From the NCBI GenBank assembly GCA_017640725.1, contig JAEPQB010000001.1:62001-126000 (forward strand): a stretch of 64,000 nucleotides of DNA, given 5' to 3'. This stretch comes from Kordiimonadaceae bacterium. GTDB taxonomy: Bacteria; Pseudomonadota; Alphaproteobacteria; Sphingomonadales; Kordiimonadaceae. The notes below the pieces were generated by a model, which made no database searches, was not told where the DNA came from, and saw only the letters and a list, made by a program, of their open reading frames with translations. Of the stretch, positions 10,327-29,794 are shown piece after piece; positions within the stretch are counted from its first letter, which is position 1, and every line of letters begins with the position of its first letter. The position numbers and the translations under genes were made by a program.

Positions 10327-13300
10327 TTATAGGATCAGTACATCCGTGCTAAGGATGGAAAGGGAGTGCCCGATGAGCAGCACACTGTCGCCGCCGCCAA
10401 GGTCGATCAGCAGGCCTGCTTCGGTCTCTGTCGCGGCGGCCTGAACGTCCGCGAGGCTGGTGAAGTCAGTGGCAGTGTTCGAGAGGTCCAGAAGGTCATT
10501 GGCGCGGAAATCGAGCACGATGTCATCGCCTGTGCCCTCGCTGAAAATGAAAGTGTCAGAGCCTGCGCTGCCTCTGAGCGTATCGTCACCGGCCCCGCCA
10601 TCAAGCGTGTCGTCACCGCGGTTGCCGTTCATCAGGTCATCGCCCGCACCGCCTGTGACCACATCATTGCCGTTGCCGCCCGCCAGAAGATCATTACCCG
10701 AGCGACCCGTGACAAAGTCATCACCGCCAGCGCCGTTAAGGCGACTGCCTGCCTCAAGCGCACGCAGCGTATCATCCCCTTTGCCACCAAACAGGCTTTC
10801 GATGGACATGAGCACGTCACCGTCCGCAAAACCACCCGTGGCTTCGCCGGTCTCAAGGTCCACGAGGATGGCGTCATCGCCGATGAGATAATCGACCCGG
10901 TCAGACCCGCCGCCACCATTGAGGGTGTCAGCGCCGCTGTCACCAAACAGCCGGTCCCCCTGGCTACCACCGTTTAGACTGTCGTCGCCGATGCTGCCGG
11001 AGAGCGTGTCACTGCCGGAGCCGCCCTCGACCGTGTCGTTACCGTTACCGCCGAGCAGGCTGTCGTTGCCCGCACCGCCATCCAGCCGGTCCGCCTGCGT
11101 GCCGCCAAACAGCACATCATCGCCTTCGCCGCCGTTGAGTGTATCAGCACCCCTGCCGCCCGAAAGAGCATTGGCTGTATTGTCGCCGGTGAGCCAGTCG
11201 GCATACGCTGAGCCCATGACATTTTCGATGCTTACCAAGCTGTCCCCTTCAGCGTCACCGCCAGCGGCAGACACACCCAGCGTGACTGTGACTGCGGCAC
11301 TGGAACTTTCATAGGACGCTGTATCGGCGCCTTCGCCGCCATCCAACCGGTCCGCCCCTTCCCCTCCGACCAGAATGTCATCGCCTGTCATGCCTAACAA
11401 AGTATCCGCGCCGACATTGCCCATCAGTCTATTATCAGCGTCATTACCGGTGAGGGTATCGTCACCGTCTGCCCCGTATGCGTTTTCAATGATTGTGTCA
11501 GGCGTGATGAAAATAGTCCCTGGTTCGATCCAGGAAGTCCCGTTACCGCTGTAGGTAATGTCGGGACCAATGTTGGACCAGGAGCCAGGCGTCAGATTGA
11601 TATGCACGGCGTCACCGCTGCCATATACACCGAGCGTATCGTCGCCTCCATAGTCCCACACCGTTGCGATCTGAGCCTTGGAAAGATCGAAAAGATACTC
11701 GTCTTGCCCTGCCGTCGTAATTGTATCGACCCCATACAGAAACTGCAGACCCAATATATCTGCATACATGTATTGCGTAGGACTGACCGTAGTATACTCC
11801 GCATCCTGATACCGGCTAGAGGGCACATATGCCATCACTGTCGTATCTTCGCCGACAAAGTCAGTCGCAGTATCCAGGTCGCTGAAGCCAAAAGAGTGGC
11901 CAAGTTCATGAGTGAAAAATAAAGCAGCATTTAGCTCGCCGACACCTACCCCGACAAGGACTGTACCGGCCCCAGGCCCATCAAACGGCACAGTCGACGC
12001 CCCACCAGAAACAAATGTGCTAAAAGTGAAGCGGATTTGGCCAGCACTGGTGCCATTGTCTTCAACCCAAACAAGATCAATATTAGAAACTGCTTCAGCT
12101 TGGGCGATGGATTGTTCGACATACCACTGTGTCAGCGGTGTAATGGCCGCCACGGAAGACCAGAAATCCTCATTCTGAGGCGTTGTTGGAAACAGGAATT
12201 CGGCGTTAGCGAAGCTATAGGAAACAGTTGTGGTTACGCCGTCACTGTCACGCGTCCAGCGCGCACCTTCGACAATCACATCGGAATTGTCCAGAAAACT
12301 GCCATCATCAGGTGTGGCAACTGTTTCAGACAGATGAAAATCTGTATAAAACGACGTCACATTGCCTGGTTCAAGGATCACATCCTCGGCTACCGGTTCA
12401 AGCTCGGCAGCACTGAGGCCGATGATGGTCAAGCTATTAGCACCATCACTTATGACTACATTGTCTCCGTCATCTTCAAACGTCAGGTCTGCTATATCCA
12501 GTCCGGAACCACGAAAATCGAGCGTGTCTGCTGCCAGCTCGAAATCGCTGATCGTGTCATCACCCCAGCCACGGCCGATAACAAAAATGTCGGCCCCCGC
12601 GCCCCCGTTCATGCTGTCGTCGCCTTGACCGGGCCGCAGTGTGTCGTTTCCTGAGCCCCCCAGGAGAACATCATCACCACTGCGGCTTTCCAGGAGGTCA
12701 TCACCGTCACCACCTGCCATATGGTCGTTGCCGTCATGGGCGACGAGAAAGTCATCGCCCGCGCCACCTTCAAGTGTGTTATCGCCGCCCTCTCCGCCTA
12801 TTATATCATTGCCGGCGCCGCCCACGAGGCTGTCATTCCCTTCAAACCCGCGCAGATAATCGGCGCCGTCACCGCCTCGGATAACATCGTTGCCGCCGTA
12901 GCCATAGATCGTGTCGGCATCCTCTCCGCCGGTCAGCGTCTCATCGTCTGCGTCTCCTTCAATGTTGCCTGGAACCAAAAGTGGCCCTGCACGAAACGCG
13001 AAATTGTCCGCGCTAAGCGCACTCGCAGACACCCCAATGAGAGTTACACTGTCGCCCCAATCTGTCGTGAGTACGGTATTGCCGCCATCCTCAGAGATGG
13101 TAAAGTCATCAAGGCTGCCTATGATTCTATCCCCAAAATCGAGGATGTCTTCGGACGGATCGAAGTCGCTGATTGTGTCGTCGCCCCATAATTCGGCATC
13201 GTCGTCCAAGACAGCATCCCAATTATTGGCGGGAAACTCGAATAAGTCCGACCCGGCGCCACCGGTCAGCAGGTCGTCGCCTAGGCCACCGCGCAGATAG

Positions 13301-13791
13301 TCGTTGCCAGCGCCGCCATCAATGGTGTCGTTCCCGATGCCCCCATTCAGGCTATCCGAAGTATTGCTACCAACAAGACCATTGTCACCGTCATCGCCAG
13401 AAACGTTTCGGGTGACGTAAAGCGTGTACGAACCGATGTCGTCAAAATATCCCGTAACGGACACATAATAGGTGCCTGTCGTAGCCGGGGTGAATTCCAG
13501 CAGGGATTCCAGAAAACCGGCGCTATCGCTGTCCCCCGCTGCGATCTGGTCGCCATTCGCGTCAAATACCCCAAGTATCTCAGGGTCTTCGATGGTGCCA
13601 TTGTCTGTGGCTCTTCCAGCGAGCCGAAAGGTGTAAGTTACACCCGCTTGCAGTTCGATTGCGATCCAGTCAACATCATCGGCAGCCTCGGTATGGCCGA
13701 AATAGACACCTTCTGACGCATCCGCATCAGTGTCCATATTAGCAGCCTCATCCGATATGGCTTGCCCCCTTTTTCCCTGCACCCAAGGCAT
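10327..13791 (-). CDS. Serralysin-like RTX metalloprotease with N-terminal PPC domain
   Basis: About 1154 residues. Order: a PPC-type domain (DDVDWIAIELQAGVTYTFRL, then TGTYYVSVTGY) in the first 130 residues; RTX blocks at about 140-180 and 280-420; a metzincin catalytic domain around 480-780; and a long C-terminal RTX/secretion module shared with the three downstream genes. The zinc site is HELGHSFGFSD, so the usual third histidine of serralysins is aspartate. A Met-turn follows (TVMAY), then MYADILGLQFLYG and WDYGGDDTLGVYG, the normal start of the serralysin C-domain. Secretion is probably type I. Start: ATG 13791 is used here; a TTG at 13824 allows a longer frame, and ATG 13737 has a better ribosome site (GGATGAGG). 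A TTGACA at 13824-13819 could be a -35 box, which would favour 13737. Confidence 0.9.
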   Translation of the reverse strand: MPWVQGKRGQAISDEAANMDTDADASEGVYFGHTEAADDVDWIAIELQAGVTYTFRLAGRATDNGTIEDPEILGVFDANGDQIAAGDSDSAGFLESLLEFTPATTGTYYVSVTGYFDDIGSYTLYVTRNVSGDDGDNGLVGSNTSDSLNGGIGNDTIDGGAGNDYLRGGLGDDLLTGGAGSDLFEFPANNWDAVLDDDAELWGDDTISDFDPSEDILDFGDRIIGSLDDFTISEDGGNTVLTTDWGDSVTLIGVSASALSADNFAFRAGPLLVPGNIEGDADDETLTGGEDADTIYGYGGNDVIRGGDGADYLRGFEGNDSLVGGAGNDIIGGEGGDNTLEGGAGDDFLVAHDGNDHMAGGDGDDLLESRSGDDVLLGGSGNDTLRPGQGDDSMNGGAGADIFVIGRGWGDDTISDFELAADTLDFRGSGLDIADLTFEDDGDNVVISDGANSLTIIGLSAAELEPVAEDVILEPGNVTSFYTDFHLSETVATPDDGSFLDNSDVIVEGARWTRDSDGVTTTVSYSFANAEFLFPTTPQNEDFWSSVAAITPLTQWYVEQSIAQAEAVSNIDLVWVEDNGTSAGQIRFTFSTFVSGGASTVPFDGPGAGTVLVGVGVGELNAALFFTHELGHSFGFSDLDTATDFVGEDTTVMAYVPSSRYQDAEYTTVSPTQYMYADILGLQFLYGVDTITTAGQDEYLFDLSKAQIATVWDYGGDDTLGVYGSGDAVHINLTPGSWSNIGPDITYSGNGTSWIEPGTIFITPDTIIENAYGADGDDTLTGNDADNRLMGNVGADTLLGMTGDDILVGGEGADRLDGGEGADTASYESSSAAVTVTLGVSAAGGDAEGDSLVSIENVMGSAYADWLTGDNTANALSGGRGADTLNGGEGDDVLFGGTQADRLDGGAGNDSLLGGNGNDTVEGGSGSDTLSGSIGDDSLNGGSQGDRLFGDSGADTLNGGGGSDRVDYLIGDDAILVDLETGEATGGFADGDVLMSIESLFGGKGDDTLRALEAGSRLNGAGGDDFVTGRSGNDLLAGGNGNDVVTGGAGDDLMNGNRGDDTLDGGAGDDTLRGSAGSDTFIFSEGTGDDIVLDFRANDLLDLSNTATDFTSLADVQAAATETEAGLLIDLGGGDSVLLIGHSLSILSTDVLIL

Positions 13792-13841
13792 GAATATAGT
13801 GAGATAGCAGCAGCATCTTGTCAATTAAGCTGCAAAGGCGC

Positions 13842-13940: not shown

Positions 13941-15131
<1,191 letters not shown>

Positions 15132-15175
15132 CTATTTGCGCCTTTTGACGTCATTTTTAGCTGCAATAACGATAT

Positions 15176-15226
15176 GAATCATGAGTCGAAAACGAATCGA
15201 GGTCAAGTGATTCTTATATAGGAATC
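15176..15226 (-). promoter_or_regulatory. ccrM promoter with five clustered GANTC sites
   Basis: Five GANTC sites lie at 15176-15180, 15183-15187, 15194-15198, 15209-15213 and 15222-15226. A likely promoter for ccrM is TTGACC (15206-15201), a 17-base spacer, and CATGAT (15183-15178). One site overlaps the -10 box, one touches its edge, one is in the spacer and two lie just upstream. GANTC is expected about once per 256 bases. In Caulobacter the ccrM promoter is known to respond to methylation of GANTC sites, so autoregulation by methylation state is a reasonable inference here. I saw no clear CtrA box. Confidence 0.65.
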
Positions 15227-15242
15227 AATATCTTGTTACTTA

Positions 15243-15908
15243 TTATTCATCTAAAATATGCCGAATCGGCGCGAAAGTTCGGCGATGATGAGGGGTCACA
15301 CCTACAAGTCTTAGTGCTTCCCGATGTTTGGCCACACCATATCCTGCGTTTTGCGCCCAACCGTATTCGGGGAACTCATTTCCCAGTTCGGCCATTAAAT
15401 TATCTCGAAAAACTTTTGCCAAAATACTGGCTGCCGCAATCGAAAGAGACCTGCCGTCGCCTTTTATGAGGGTGCGCGTCGGCAAACCATCAAGACCCGG
15501 ATCTTTGTTGCCGTCCACAAGGGCGCCGTGCGGACGCACGGTCAAACCGGCAACAGCGCGGCGCATGGCCAGCAAGCTTGCTTGAAGGATATTGAGTTCA
15601 TCAATCTCTTCAACGCTTGCCTCGGCGATGCAGAAAGCGATGGCATTTTGCTGGATCGCCTCATAAAGCGCATCGCGTTTTTTAGCAGATAGTTTTTTGC
15701 TGTCATCCAGGCCAACGGGCACAGCAGCAGGGTCCAGAACCACTGCCGCTGCAACCACGGGACCTGCGAGCGGGCCGCGCCCCACTTCATCAACCCCGCA
15801 AATAAACGCTGATGCCTTTGAGACATTCAGCTCTTTGATAAGGGACTGCTCCGAGGAAAAATCCGGCCCACTCGGCAATGTGACTTTGGCGATGTCAAAC
15901 AAGTCCAT
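15243..15908 (-). CDS. rnhB: Ribonuclease HII
   Basis: A 221-residue RNase HII that removes RNA, including single ribonucleotides, from RNA-DNA hybrids. The N-terminal signature GVDEVGRGPLAGPVVAAAVV supplies catalytic Asp and Glu. GLDDSKKLSAKKRDALYE, HGALVDGN and SIAAASILAKVFRD are further family blocks carrying the other acidic and helper residues. The C-terminus has the GYGVAKHREAL and HRRTFAPI motifs. The frame is open upstream to 16055, but ATG 15908 (MDLFDIAKV) gives the normal length and leaves 87 bases before the divergent gene at 15996. It ends 16 bases before the ccrM GANTC cluster, so ccrM is transcribed from its own promoter and possibly also by read-through from rnhB. Confidence 0.95.
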   Translation of the reverse strand: MDLFDIAKVTLPSGPDFSSEQSLIKELNVSKASAFICGVDEVGRGPLAGPVVAAAVVLDPAAVPVGLDDSKKLSAKKRDALYEAIQQNAIAFCIAEASVEEIDELNILQASLLAMRRAVAGLTVRPHGALVDGNKDPGLDGLPTRTLIKGDGRSLSIAAASILAKVFRDNLMAELGNEFPEYGWAQNAGYGVAKHREALRLVGVTPHHRRTFAPIRHILDE

Positions 15909-15995
15909 GACAAACAGGCCTTGGCAATAGTATTGATGGTTTCGCACATAGCGCCAGAATTCCGAAGCCACCGCAAGCGCATATTGGTATTGATC

Positions 15996-16967
15996 ATGTC
16001 TGACCCCAAGCAAATATTGGCGAATATGCCTGATGCCCTTGAGCGCGTGGGCCATGAAGGCATATGGCGCATCACTTCCCAGCTAAAGAATTCCAGAAAG
16101 TGCGACATCTATTTAGCGGCCAACCCTTCAACCTCTCAAAAACTAGCCCTAAAAATATTCAGGCCTGGTGGAACGTCTGAACAAGCACCTGGCCTTCAAT
16201 TCCGGGCGCTCGAGCGACTGCAAAAGGCCACCCCCAGAGTGCTGGCGCCCAAAGTGTTTGGATTTTCCTCCGAAAACAACGCCATTTTGATGGAATGGAT
16301 TGAGGCAGAGACAATTCAGGCAACCCTTTGGCGCTCGATACTCGTGCCATCAAAAAGAAAGCAAGCCGTTCAGAAAGCCGGGGCATGGTTGCGACAGTTT
16401 CATGAGGTTTCGCATATTGCCTTGCAACCGCTTGACGGCAATAAGCTCGCACAAAAACTGGTCACACAACTTCAGAAACACGGGCAGACTACAGATTTTG
16501 ACGCCATCCAGCAATCAATTGGCAAATTTGAGGCTGCGGCCAAGACGTTAGATATGAATGTGCCGCACGCCTTATTGCATGGGGATTTCACGGTGCGGAA
16601 TGTGTTGATGCAGTCTGGCTCCACCGTAGGGATCGACATCTGGGGTGCCCGTATGGGTCCCGTGTTCGAAGATGCAGCCCGCTTTGTTACCTATGCTGCG
16701 ATCAATACGCCTTTTGCTCTCTCCCATTCTCCCTGGCACCCTGACGGGCCGCTTTCTCAGTCATTCGCGACTGGATATGGAAAAGACCTTTTGGACGTGC
16801 GGTGCAAAAGCTGGACCCTATTGATGTGGTATCAGTTTATGCGGCGCTGGATTGTTTATTCTGCACGCCAATCGAAGGGCAATTCCGTCAACCTGACCCG
16901 TTGGCAAGTCAAAAGAGCCGAGGCAGGCTCACTTATCCTACAAAGCTGGCTTGAAGATTGCTTTTGA
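15996..16967 (+). CDS. Kinase-fold phosphotransferase (APH family)
   Basis: A 323-residue protein of the aminoglycoside/choline kinase fold. The N-lobe has LALKIFRPGG (the ATP-binding Lys) and AILMEWIEAETIQ (hinge). The catalytic loop is LLHGDFTVRNVLMQ near residue 193, with HGD and N as expected. The metal-binding segment is GIDIWGARMGPVFEDAARFV, where Asp keeps its place although the usual DFE/DWE text is altered. The substrate is unknown and drug resistance should not be assumed: the family also phosphorylates sugars, choline and lipids. Start ATG 15996 was chosen over an in-frame ATG at 15921 because it avoids overlap with rnhB; its ribosome site is weak. An inverted repeat (TTAGCTT/AAGCTAA) follows the stop but has no T run. 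Confidence 0.75.
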   Translation: MSDPKQILANMPDALERVGHEGIWRITSQLKNSRKCDIYLAANPSTSQKLALKIFRPGGTSEQAPGLQFRALERLQKATPRVLAPKVFGFSSENNAILMEWIEAETIQATLWRSILVPSKRKQAVQKAGAWLRQFHEVSHIALQPLDGNKLAQKLVTQLQKHGQTTDFDAIQQSIGKFEAAAKTLDMNVPHALLHGDFTVRNVLMQSGSTVGIDIWGARMGPVFEDAARFVTYAAINTPFALSHSPWHPDGPLSQSFATGYGKDLLDVRCKSWTLLMWYQFMRRWIVYSARQSKGNSVNLTRWQVKRAEAGSLILQSWLEDCF

Positions 16968-28507: not shown

Positions 28508-29704
28508 TTAGTCCAGGCCTGGAATGACGAGGACGCCGTCCTCATAGTCTTCGATCCAGATCAGAAACTCGTTGGCGGACATCGGTTTACCGATCAGATA
28601 CCCCTGTGCGATTTCAGCGCCGACCTCTTTTGCCATCCGCAACTGCGCTTCGGTTTCCACGCCTTCAACTGTTGGCATCAACTTCAGCTTTTTGGCCAGA
28701 TCGATTGCTGATTCGAATATAACCCGGGCCGTTGGGTTTTCGGCAGCGCGCGCAAGAAAAGTCCGGTCAATAACCAACTCATCGAACGGGATCGACTGCA
28801 GGCGCATCAAGGGCGCAAACCCGGCACCAAAGTCATCGAGTCCCAAACCAAAACCCCGCGCATGCAGGCGGCCCAGGTTTTCAAGCGGCACACGCTCATC
28901 AACTTCAAAATCAGCTTCGGTAATTTCCAGCCGCACCATGGAAGGTGCAACGCCAAACTGTTCTGCCAGACCTGAAACCACATCGGCAAAATCGGTTTTG
29001 CGCAGATTTTCGCTGGACGCATTGATTGATAGGGGGACATCCTTACCTTCGCGGCGCCATTTGCCTTGCTGCTGCAACGCAAGTTCAAGCATGCGGTAAG
29101 TGAGGACATCCATATAGCCTTTTTCGCGGGCCACTTTGATAACCGCGCCAGCGCTCAAAAGACCGCCACCGGGCGCGTTCCAGCGCGCGAACGCCTCTGC
29201 ACCCACGACCTTACCATTACGCAAGTTCACTTTGGGTTGGAACACTGGCGACAAACCGTCCGTCATCAGCCCGCGCATAAATTCTGACTCAGCCACCCCA
29301 GACCGTGCAGACTCGAGGTCTGCACCGCTTAGATTCGCAACGTCACTTAGTGCTGAAATCAACAACTCTCGCTGAATGGGGGGAGAAAGCACCGCCAACA
29401 GGTCAACACTGTAGGCCAAAGCATGTTCGCGAATTCTTTGAAGCTCCAATGGGTCATTGTCAGCCACCAACACAATGGACGGCGAATATTCAAGACTGGA
29501 GACTTTCTCAATCAATTTAAAACCATCTGAATCGGCGAGCCGATGCGACGAGATCACCACGTCAAAGCGCTCGGTTTGCATAACATCAAACGCTTGGCCA
29601 GAGCCAAGCGCACCGGCAACGAGAAAATCAAGACTAGGCAAAAAGCCGGTCAGCGTTTCTTGAAGTTGGGAACTATCGTCTACGGCCAGAATGCGTTTGC
29701 TCAC
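28508..29704 (-). CDS. REC-EAL protein with degenerate receiver and altered EAL site
   Basis: About 398 residues. Residues 1-120 are a receiver fold (RILAVDDSS at the acidic pocket), but the phosphoacceptor Asp is missing: the strand reads FDVVISSHRLADSDG, and the switch Lys is replaced in LAVLSPP. The EAL domain (150-390) has GAEAFARW in place of EAL, SINAS, EITEADFE, LDDFGAG, PTVEGVETEAQL and AQGYLIGKP. The Lys of the usual xKIDR motif is Val (ELVIDRTFL). Cyclic-di-GMP binding is plausible, but phosphodiesterase activity is doubtful. GTG 29704 follows GAGGAAATGCCGC; longer starts exist at 29746 and 29764. Confidence 0.88.
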   Translation of the reverse strand: MSKRILAVDDSSQLQETLTGFLPSLDFLVAGALGSGQAFDVMQTERFDVVISSHRLADSDGFKLIEKVSSLEYSPSIVLVADNDPLELQRIREHALAYSVDLLAVLSPPIQRELLISALSDVANLSGADLESARSGVAESEFMRGLMTDGLSPVFQPKVNLRNGKVVGAEAFARWNAPGGGLLSAGAVIKVAREKGYMDVLTYRMLELALQQQGKWRREGKDVPLSINASSENLRKTDFADVVSGLAEQFGVAPSMVRLEITEADFEVDERVPLENLGRLHARGFGLGLDDFGAGFAPLMRLQSIPFDELVIDRTFLARAAENPTARVIFESAIDLAKKLKLMPTVEGVETEAQLRMAKEVGAEIAQGYLIGKPMSANEFLIWIEDYEDGVLVIPGLD

Positions 29705-29794
29705 GCGGCATTTCCTCAGGTGGTTTGAATAAAAGAAGCCTACCATCTGCCTCTGAGAGGTCAAATAGTAGGCTAAATTTGGTTAATATCCTGT

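Follow-up and report, generated by a model that had tools for sequence, protein, structure and literature searches.

The core promoter of the DNA methyltransferase gene ccrM in a Kordiimonadaceae bacterium carries a cluster of GANTC sites, the target sequence of the CcrM enzyme itself. This feature is best read as a sigma70 promoter of ccrM in which CcrM's own targets lie in register with the −35 and −10 boxes. Comparison of upstream regions demonstrates that this TTGAC/GANTC register at ccrM is kept across the class at the sequence level, and genome searches establish that the pattern is specific to ccrM in the Kordiimonadaceae genome. Such a promoter probably reads methylation. The window is the whole stretch of DNA that was analysed (64 kb). 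Site offsets are counted from the first T of TTGAC, and the genus set comprises 18 loci: that of the source genome plus one from each of the 17 further genus members, out of 18, in which ccrM was matched. The features on which the argument depends are as follows.

13941 to 15086, minus strand: ccrM, encoding a 381-aa GANTC adenine methyltransferase, ATG at 15086 (ORF, Pfam and 6pbd match)
15176 to 15180, unstranded: GANTC at +26 from TTGAC, over the 3′ half of the −10 box; retained in 8 of the 18 genus loci
15178 to 15183, minus strand: predicted −10 box CATGAT, with a 17-nt spacer (consensus scan); CATnnT in 18 of 18 genus loci
15183 to 15187, unstranded: GANTC at +19, sharing its final base with the start of the −10 box; all 18 genus loci, 108 of 209 regions class-wide
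15194 to 15198, unstranded: GANTC at +8, in the spacer; 18 of 18 genus loci, exactly +8 in 68 regions class-wide
15201 to 15206, minus strand: predicted −35 box TTGACC (consensus scan); TTGAC here in 18 of 18 genus loci
15209 to 15213, unstranded: GANTC at −7, on the upstream side of the −35 box and 2 nt away; all 18 genus loci
15222 to 15226, unstranded: GANTC at −20, further upstream; 16 of 18 genus loci
15243 to 16055, minus strand: rnhB (ribonuclease HII), the upstream neighbour of ccrM on the same strand (ORF, and Pfam RNase_HII at 1.6e-45 on 15246-15911)
15263 to 15267, unstranded: sixth GANTC, at −61, within the 3′ end of rnhB; all 18 genus loci

The gene at 13941..15086 is a real ccrM, as judged from its predicted product, which contains the Pfam domains N6_N4_Mtase (7e-69) and RAMA (5e-17) and matches Caulobacter CcrM (6pbd) with an E-value of 4e-161 over residues 30-380, which is nearly the whole length. 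Searching the 4.04-Mb genome with the CcrM protein gave no second match at E 0.001. In Kordiimonas gwangyangensis (L003), CcrM is 85% identical to the query and the ccrM upstream sequence is the same as that of the same-genus genome G010. The source genome belongs to the genus that includes this species. The true rnhB start probably lies within the ORF at 15243..16055. On the other side, ccrM adjoins a 1165-aa ORF (10327-13824, minus strand) with many GGxGxD-type repeats and a HELGH motif, which by eye resembles a secreted RTX-type metalloprotease.

Five GANTC sites occur within 51 bp (GAATC at 15176, GAGTC at 15183, GAATC at 15194, GATTC at 15209 and GAATC at 15222), exactly where an earlier note on this DNA had placed them. 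That note assumed one site per 256 bp by chance, which misjudges the background: the window contains 71 sites in 64 kb, or about 1 per 900 bp, compared with a mean of 228 over 100 dinucleotide shuffles, so the 256-bp baseline understates how unusual the cluster is. This scarcity of GANTC in the window is no more than consistent with GANTC methylation by the predicted CcrM of this genome. The densest 51-bp span elsewhere in the window has three sites. When 71 sites were placed uniformly, five within 51 bp arose in 1 of 20,000 trials, and first-order Markov sequences with the same dinucleotide make-up reached a maximum of four, in 10 of 200 sequences. Three sites also fall within 51 bp at 29286-29336, inside a coding frame (28508-29764, minus strand) whose product looks by eye like a receiver plus EAL protein; this grouping is probably due to chance.

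Read on the minus strand, the ccrM cluster has the order GATTC-N8-GAATC-AC-TTGACC-TC-GATTC-GTTTTC-GACTC-AT-GATTC. A consensus scan of 15050-15350 gave a single promoter-like match, on the correct strand; shuffled sequences average 0.6 such matches, so the scan alone is no evidence for a promoter. Set against that match, the GANTC coordinates bear out the earlier proposal of sites over a likely −10 box, inside its spacer and immediately upstream of the −35 box. GANTC is thus found within the predicted core promoter, as is expected of a sigma70 promoter regulated by GcrA and CcrM.

Conservation in related genomes, which the earlier note had proposed as a check, is very strong. The −7 site (next to the −35 box), the +8 site (spacer) and the +19 site (−10 box) are each kept throughout the genus set together with TTGAC and CATnnT, and the −20 and +26 sites are kept less strictly. 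CATnnT persists where the +26 GANTC is lost, so box and site can be distinguished. The sixth site lies in codons of the RNase HII tail (Pro-Ile-Arg), and its conservation may therefore reflect the protein.

Class-wide conservation was assessed in 209 distinct ccrM upstream regions. Removing 13 non-ccrM loci (L110, L140, L141, L222-L231) left 218 loci, from which L059 (too short) and eight duplicates were dropped. They include named loci (the best 80 of 583 relatives) and a class sample of 109 loci from 77 families, 29 chosen automatically and 80 by hand, with roughly one or a few per family. The class sample was drawn from matches listed in 203 of 241 genomes; low-similarity CcrMs are under-sampled and the samples are skewed towards CcrMs that resemble the query. 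Upstream means the 330 nt (300 nt for site counts) before the codon aligned to query residue 29, which in some loci contains up to about 84 nt of coding sequence. The arrangement is defined as an exact TTGAC and a GANTC that starts between +7 and +9 or between +18 and +20. It is present in 145 regions and absent from 64; both registers occur together in 85, and GANTC lies exactly at +19 in 108. For the same three counts, the opposite strand gives 4, 0 and 0, base shuffling gives 1.3, 0 and 0.16, and random re-placement of intact GANTC blocks gives 18.1, 0.26 and 2.7. TTGAC itself occurs 232 times on the coding strand of these regions versus 71 times on the opposite strand. At least one locus with the arrangement is found in 49 of the 77 families of the class sample.

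An independent sign of a promoter comes from the 108 loci chosen by TTGAC and GANTC at +19 only. Bases of the −10 box were not used in this choice, yet position 2 is A in every one of the 108 and position 6 is T in 107. In 99 of them another GANTC begins between −24 and −5 relative to TTGAC. The two inner sites differ in their middle base. At the exact +8 site it varies (T24 G18 C14 A12), which is expected if a CcrM target is kept rather than one fixed word, and at +19 it is C or A in 103 of 108. In 27 loci where the +19 site is absent, the C, A and T of the −10 box still occur in 78%, 70% and 70%; the common C in the first position is hence not a cost imposed by GANTC. Clustering as such is widespread: at least three GANTC sites precede the conserved start of the CcrM domain within 300 nt in 84 of 109 loci of the class sample and 161 of all 209 regions. 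The cluster is therefore not peculiar to the Kordiimonadaceae genome. Read whole, the 80 named loci (the best 80 of 583) have a mean of 0.61 GANTC per 300 nt. DnaA-like boxes (TTWTNCACA) occur in 26 of the 209 regions, with about 4 expected (75 in 20 shuffle rounds); they are found with and without the TTGAC/GANTC arrangement, and in one genome (G049) such a box lies within the ccrM promoter spacer. Among the matches listed for open-licence literature on ccrM, CcrM, GcrA or GANTC promoters, no report of the TTGAC/GANTC register at ccrM was found.

The pattern is also specific. TTGACN3GANTCN6GANTC has one exact match in the 4.04-Mb genome, at ccrM, and TTGACN14GANTCAN3T also occurs once. In the 241 class genomes exact matches number 39, spread over 38 genomes, compared with 2 in the control. 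Coordinates compared by eye place 30 of them on the strand of a ccrM match and no more than about 140 nt upstream of it. A wider regulon of ccrM-like promoters in the source genome was considered and rejected: allowing up to two mismatches in TTGACN3GANTCN6GANTC gives 46 matches, with 45 in the control, which is nothing beyond chance. Nine exact copies are found away from ccrM (in G175, G036, G239, G066, G235, G190 and G113, and twice in G028; control 2), and one of these genomes, G239, has no CcrM match.

We lean towards an old, methylation-responsive ccrM promoter with replication-tied, self-limiting feedback, in which GcrA would act as a modulator where it is present. CcrM would methylate the GANTC sites in its own promoter, and their methylation state would change the binding or opening of the promoter by RNA polymerase. 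The promoter would be fully methylated before replication, become hemi-methylated when the fork passes, and regain full methylation once CcrM has accumulated. Transcription of ccrM, on when hemi-methylated and off when fully methylated, could in this way be tied to replication and limit itself. The polymerase-promoter complex itself is the probable point of action, GcrA serving as a modulating cofactor in genomes that encode it. Besides the cases cited below, another parallel comes from IS10, whose transposase promoter contains a methylation-sensitive Dam site.

The direct effect on the polymerase-promoter complex is favoured by a precedent in Agrobacterium, where methylation of the gcrA promoter region, with six GANTC sites, is reported to lower activity, in E. 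coli too (PMC11514494). With regard to sign, analogy somewhat favours self-limiting over self-reinforcing feedback. Caulobacter ccrM, transcribed by CtrA, is described in a modelling paper as transcribed only from the hemi-methylated chromosome (PMC2217572), and ccrM is elsewhere called "most probably" methylation-regulated (PMC3973325). A counterexample is ftsZ of Caulobacter: its promoter, in which a CGACTC falls between −35 and −10, is reported to reach top activity when fully methylated (PMC3708114). The −10-adjacent site of the ccrM promoter is also CGACTC, as in ftsZ, and this shared motif together with the behaviour of ftsZ counts against the self-limiting sign.

GcrA is a known reader of methylated GANTC, and the main competing explanation gives it the leading part: GcrA with sigma70 would bind the methylated spacer sites and switch ccrM on, so that CcrM is self-reinforcing through positive feedback. 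GcrA is encoded in the source genome, where two GcrA-matching stretches are detected (5.9e-22 and 8.1e-20) and a 138-aa ORF is present. A preference of GcrA for methylated GANTC has been reported (PMC3667746), as has a proposed GcrA-activating motif, YGAKTCG, which according to the available text of that paper was not found in Brevundimonas (PMC7987155). That motif fits both inner sites: the spacer site at 15194 reads CGATTCG on the coding strand and fits directly, and the site at 15183 (CGACTCA) fits on the other strand as TGAGTCG. The prevalence of C or A at the middle of the +19 site class-wide likewise corresponds to K on the other strand. Activation at 40-60 min of the cell cycle is reported for those Caulobacter start sites whose −10 to −35 interval contains GANTC (PMC4287350). 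Against this explanation stands the distribution of GcrA. PF07750 is matched in 157 of 241 class genomes (155 above the family cut-off); among 14 control genomes it is matched in Caulobacter and, oddly, Sulfolobus. Of the 109 class-sample loci, 88 have a PF07750 match in their genome and 59 of these carry the arrangement, as do 14 of the 21 that have none. A 12-sequence GcrA profile found nothing in 24 PF07750-negative genomes (the 21 plus three), where divergent GcrA or assembly gaps are possible. The same search found GcrA in 13 of 14 other genomes, once weakly. One of the 24 genomes without detected GcrA (G084) is a single contig with 100% completeness, and both the +8 and +19 sites are present. 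The arrangement is equally frequent with and without detected GcrA, so GcrA alone is an insufficient explanation; class-wide dependence of the arrangement on GcrA is unsupported by these counts and the profile search, and across these genomes GcrA is probably not strictly required. Middle bases at +19 are also similar at GcrA-lacking loci (C7 A4 of 11) and others (C28 A11 of 39). The base before the exact +8 site is C in 2 of 5 GcrA-lacking loci versus 16 of 21 others, numbers too few to judge; if upheld by more data, this rarity would point to a GcrA effect at that site. On this balance, activation of ccrM by GcrA as the explanation of the arrangement seems rather unlikely. Upstream of gcrA in the source genome (L140, ATG at 1501), three GANTC sites lie within 24 bp, 74 to 55 nt before the ATG, and by eye there is no TTGAC box at the ccrM spacing.

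Some restriction-modification methylases block RNA polymerase at their own promoters, and CcrM itself could be the repressor if the dense sites recruit the enzyme so that polymerase is excluded. The location of sites over and beside both boxes agrees with this, as does the free middle base at +8, which CcrM recognition requires. Repression of this kind requires stable CcrM binding, and the fixed −10 register exceeds what occlusion needs, which makes it improbable. It is a little less probable still that the conserved blocks are a plain shared promoter with a strong −10/−35 context in which GANTC is incidental. The frequency of the −10 bases C, A and T at loci without the +19 site is what such a promoter would give. 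A +8 GANTC with a free middle base is unlike a generic promoter, however, and neither the additional GANTC upstream of TTGAC in most of the 108 loci nor the near confinement of the pattern to ccrM fits that explanation.

Control by CtrA, as in Caulobacter, with GANTC sites merely for fine-tuning, has precedents: S. meliloti ccrM is bound by CtrA and drops on CtrA depletion (PMC4433202), and Caulobacter ccrM is activated by CtrA (PMC2877005). At the Kordiimonadaceae locus it is highly improbable. No TTAA occurs in 15100-15262, hence no full CtrA site (TTAA-N7-TTAA), and CtrA control was rejected there. Among the 145 regions with the arrangement the full site is found in 4, with about 1 in shuffles; among the 64 regions without, it is found in 7, with about 0.4 in shuffles.

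The regions that lack the arrangement fall partly along lineages, as far as the record titles of named loci on which these statements rest allow. The arrangement is absent from 13 of 15 usable loci whose titles give Hyphomicrobiales, Rhizobiales or a genus that we place there; the two exceptions, L016 and L019, are MAGs placed by title only. In the order that includes Hirschia and Algimonas, which we take to be Caulobacterales, it occurs in 4 of 30 loci (the best 30 of 41 genomes). With so few cases in that order, Caulobacter is a poor yardstick for the comparison of site numbers drawn in the earlier note. Every locus titled Pelagibacteraceae has the arrangement (4 of 4), as do 6 of the 7 whose names are of Sphingomonadales type. 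We tentatively raise, as possible but doubtful, an ancestral alphaproteobacterial control of ccrM by a core-promoter switch, in which m6A at fixed places next to the −35 and −10 boxes would gate sigma70 polymerase directly, without CtrA or GcrA, timed by the fork, and CtrA would be a later replacement in Hyphomicrobiales and Caulobacterales. Because most regions that lack the arrangement also lack the strict CtrA motif, support for such a replacement comes mainly from the literature. Brilli et al. (2010) counted GANTC upstream of cell-cycle genes; the available text draws no conclusion from these counts (PMC2877005).

Related systems share parts of this architecture. The Caulobacter crescentus ftsZ promoter also has GANTC between −35 and −10 with C before GACTC, and at ftsZ and mipZ, which are activated by methylation through a CGACTC motif, the integrity of GANTC matters (PMC3708114). 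Those promoters have, in the available text, one conserved CGACTC each, and they drive other products and involve no methylase feedback (PMC3708114), whereas the Kordiimonadaceae ccrM promoter has 4-5 in-register sites at the methylase's own gene. The Agrobacterium tumefaciens gcrA promoter similarly has dense GANTC (6 in 250 bp) before a gene for a cell-cycle regulator; it serves a different gene, and the available text neither places the sites against promoter boxes nor discusses their conservation (PMC11514494). At Caulobacter ctrA P1, GANTC lies near −35 and hemi-methylation activates with GcrA (PMC3667746, PMC4287350, PMC8116508), but this is a single site at about −29 and not at a methylase gene. 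The Caulobacter ccrM promoter has GANTC at ccrM, transcription described as hemi-methylated-only (PMC2217572) and probable methylation sensitivity (PMC3973325). It differs in being activated by CtrA, and the register is missing in 26 of 30 loci of the Hirschia/Algimonas order. Stephens et al. (1995) reportedly described two GANTC sites in the Caulobacter ccrM leader.

The usual view of CcrM, based on Caulobacter and rhizobia, places it downstream of CtrA. Kordiimonas and many loci titled Sphingomonadales, Rhodospirillaceae and Pelagibacteraceae share a methylation-loaded ccrM core promoter, which suggests that in an older circuit the mark governs the enzyme that writes it. Such a promoter also makes testable, in a small system, whether m6A in a core promoter acts on RNA polymerase itself or only via GcrA. 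Genomes that have the sites and lack detectable GcrA are natural test cases.

Downstream of the −10 box, the predicted transcript begins with a leader that has features of its own.

15087 to 15171, minus strand: predicted 5′ leader of ccrM mRNA, its start inferred from the −10 box
15158 to 15166 and 15126 to 15134, minus strand: outer arms of a possible leader hairpin (folding and arm scoring by script)
15093 to 15099, minus strand: GGGACGG, a conserved motif resembling a ribosome-binding site, before the start codon in the predicted leader

In 15 of the 18 genus leaders the best outer arms occupy roughly the same position; in L002, L085 and L087 other arms were picked. Arm sequences differ between species (TCGCATCAA/TTGATGCGA, GCCGGAAA/TTTCCGGC and GCTGAAAA/TTTTCAGC). 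The arms were selected for complementarity, so their pairing is true by construction. Leader by leader, between 0 and 38 of 100 shuffles score as well as the real arms, and for 7 of the 18 leaders at most 5 do, which makes the signal of the arms alone modest; MAFFT, applied to 14 leaders, left the hairpin unaligned. Folding models indicate that a two-part hairpin is likely in the ccrM leader: compared with dinucleotide shuffles, the genus leaders have a mean folding z of −2.2, and z is below −1 in 17 of 18, with −0.45 in L003.
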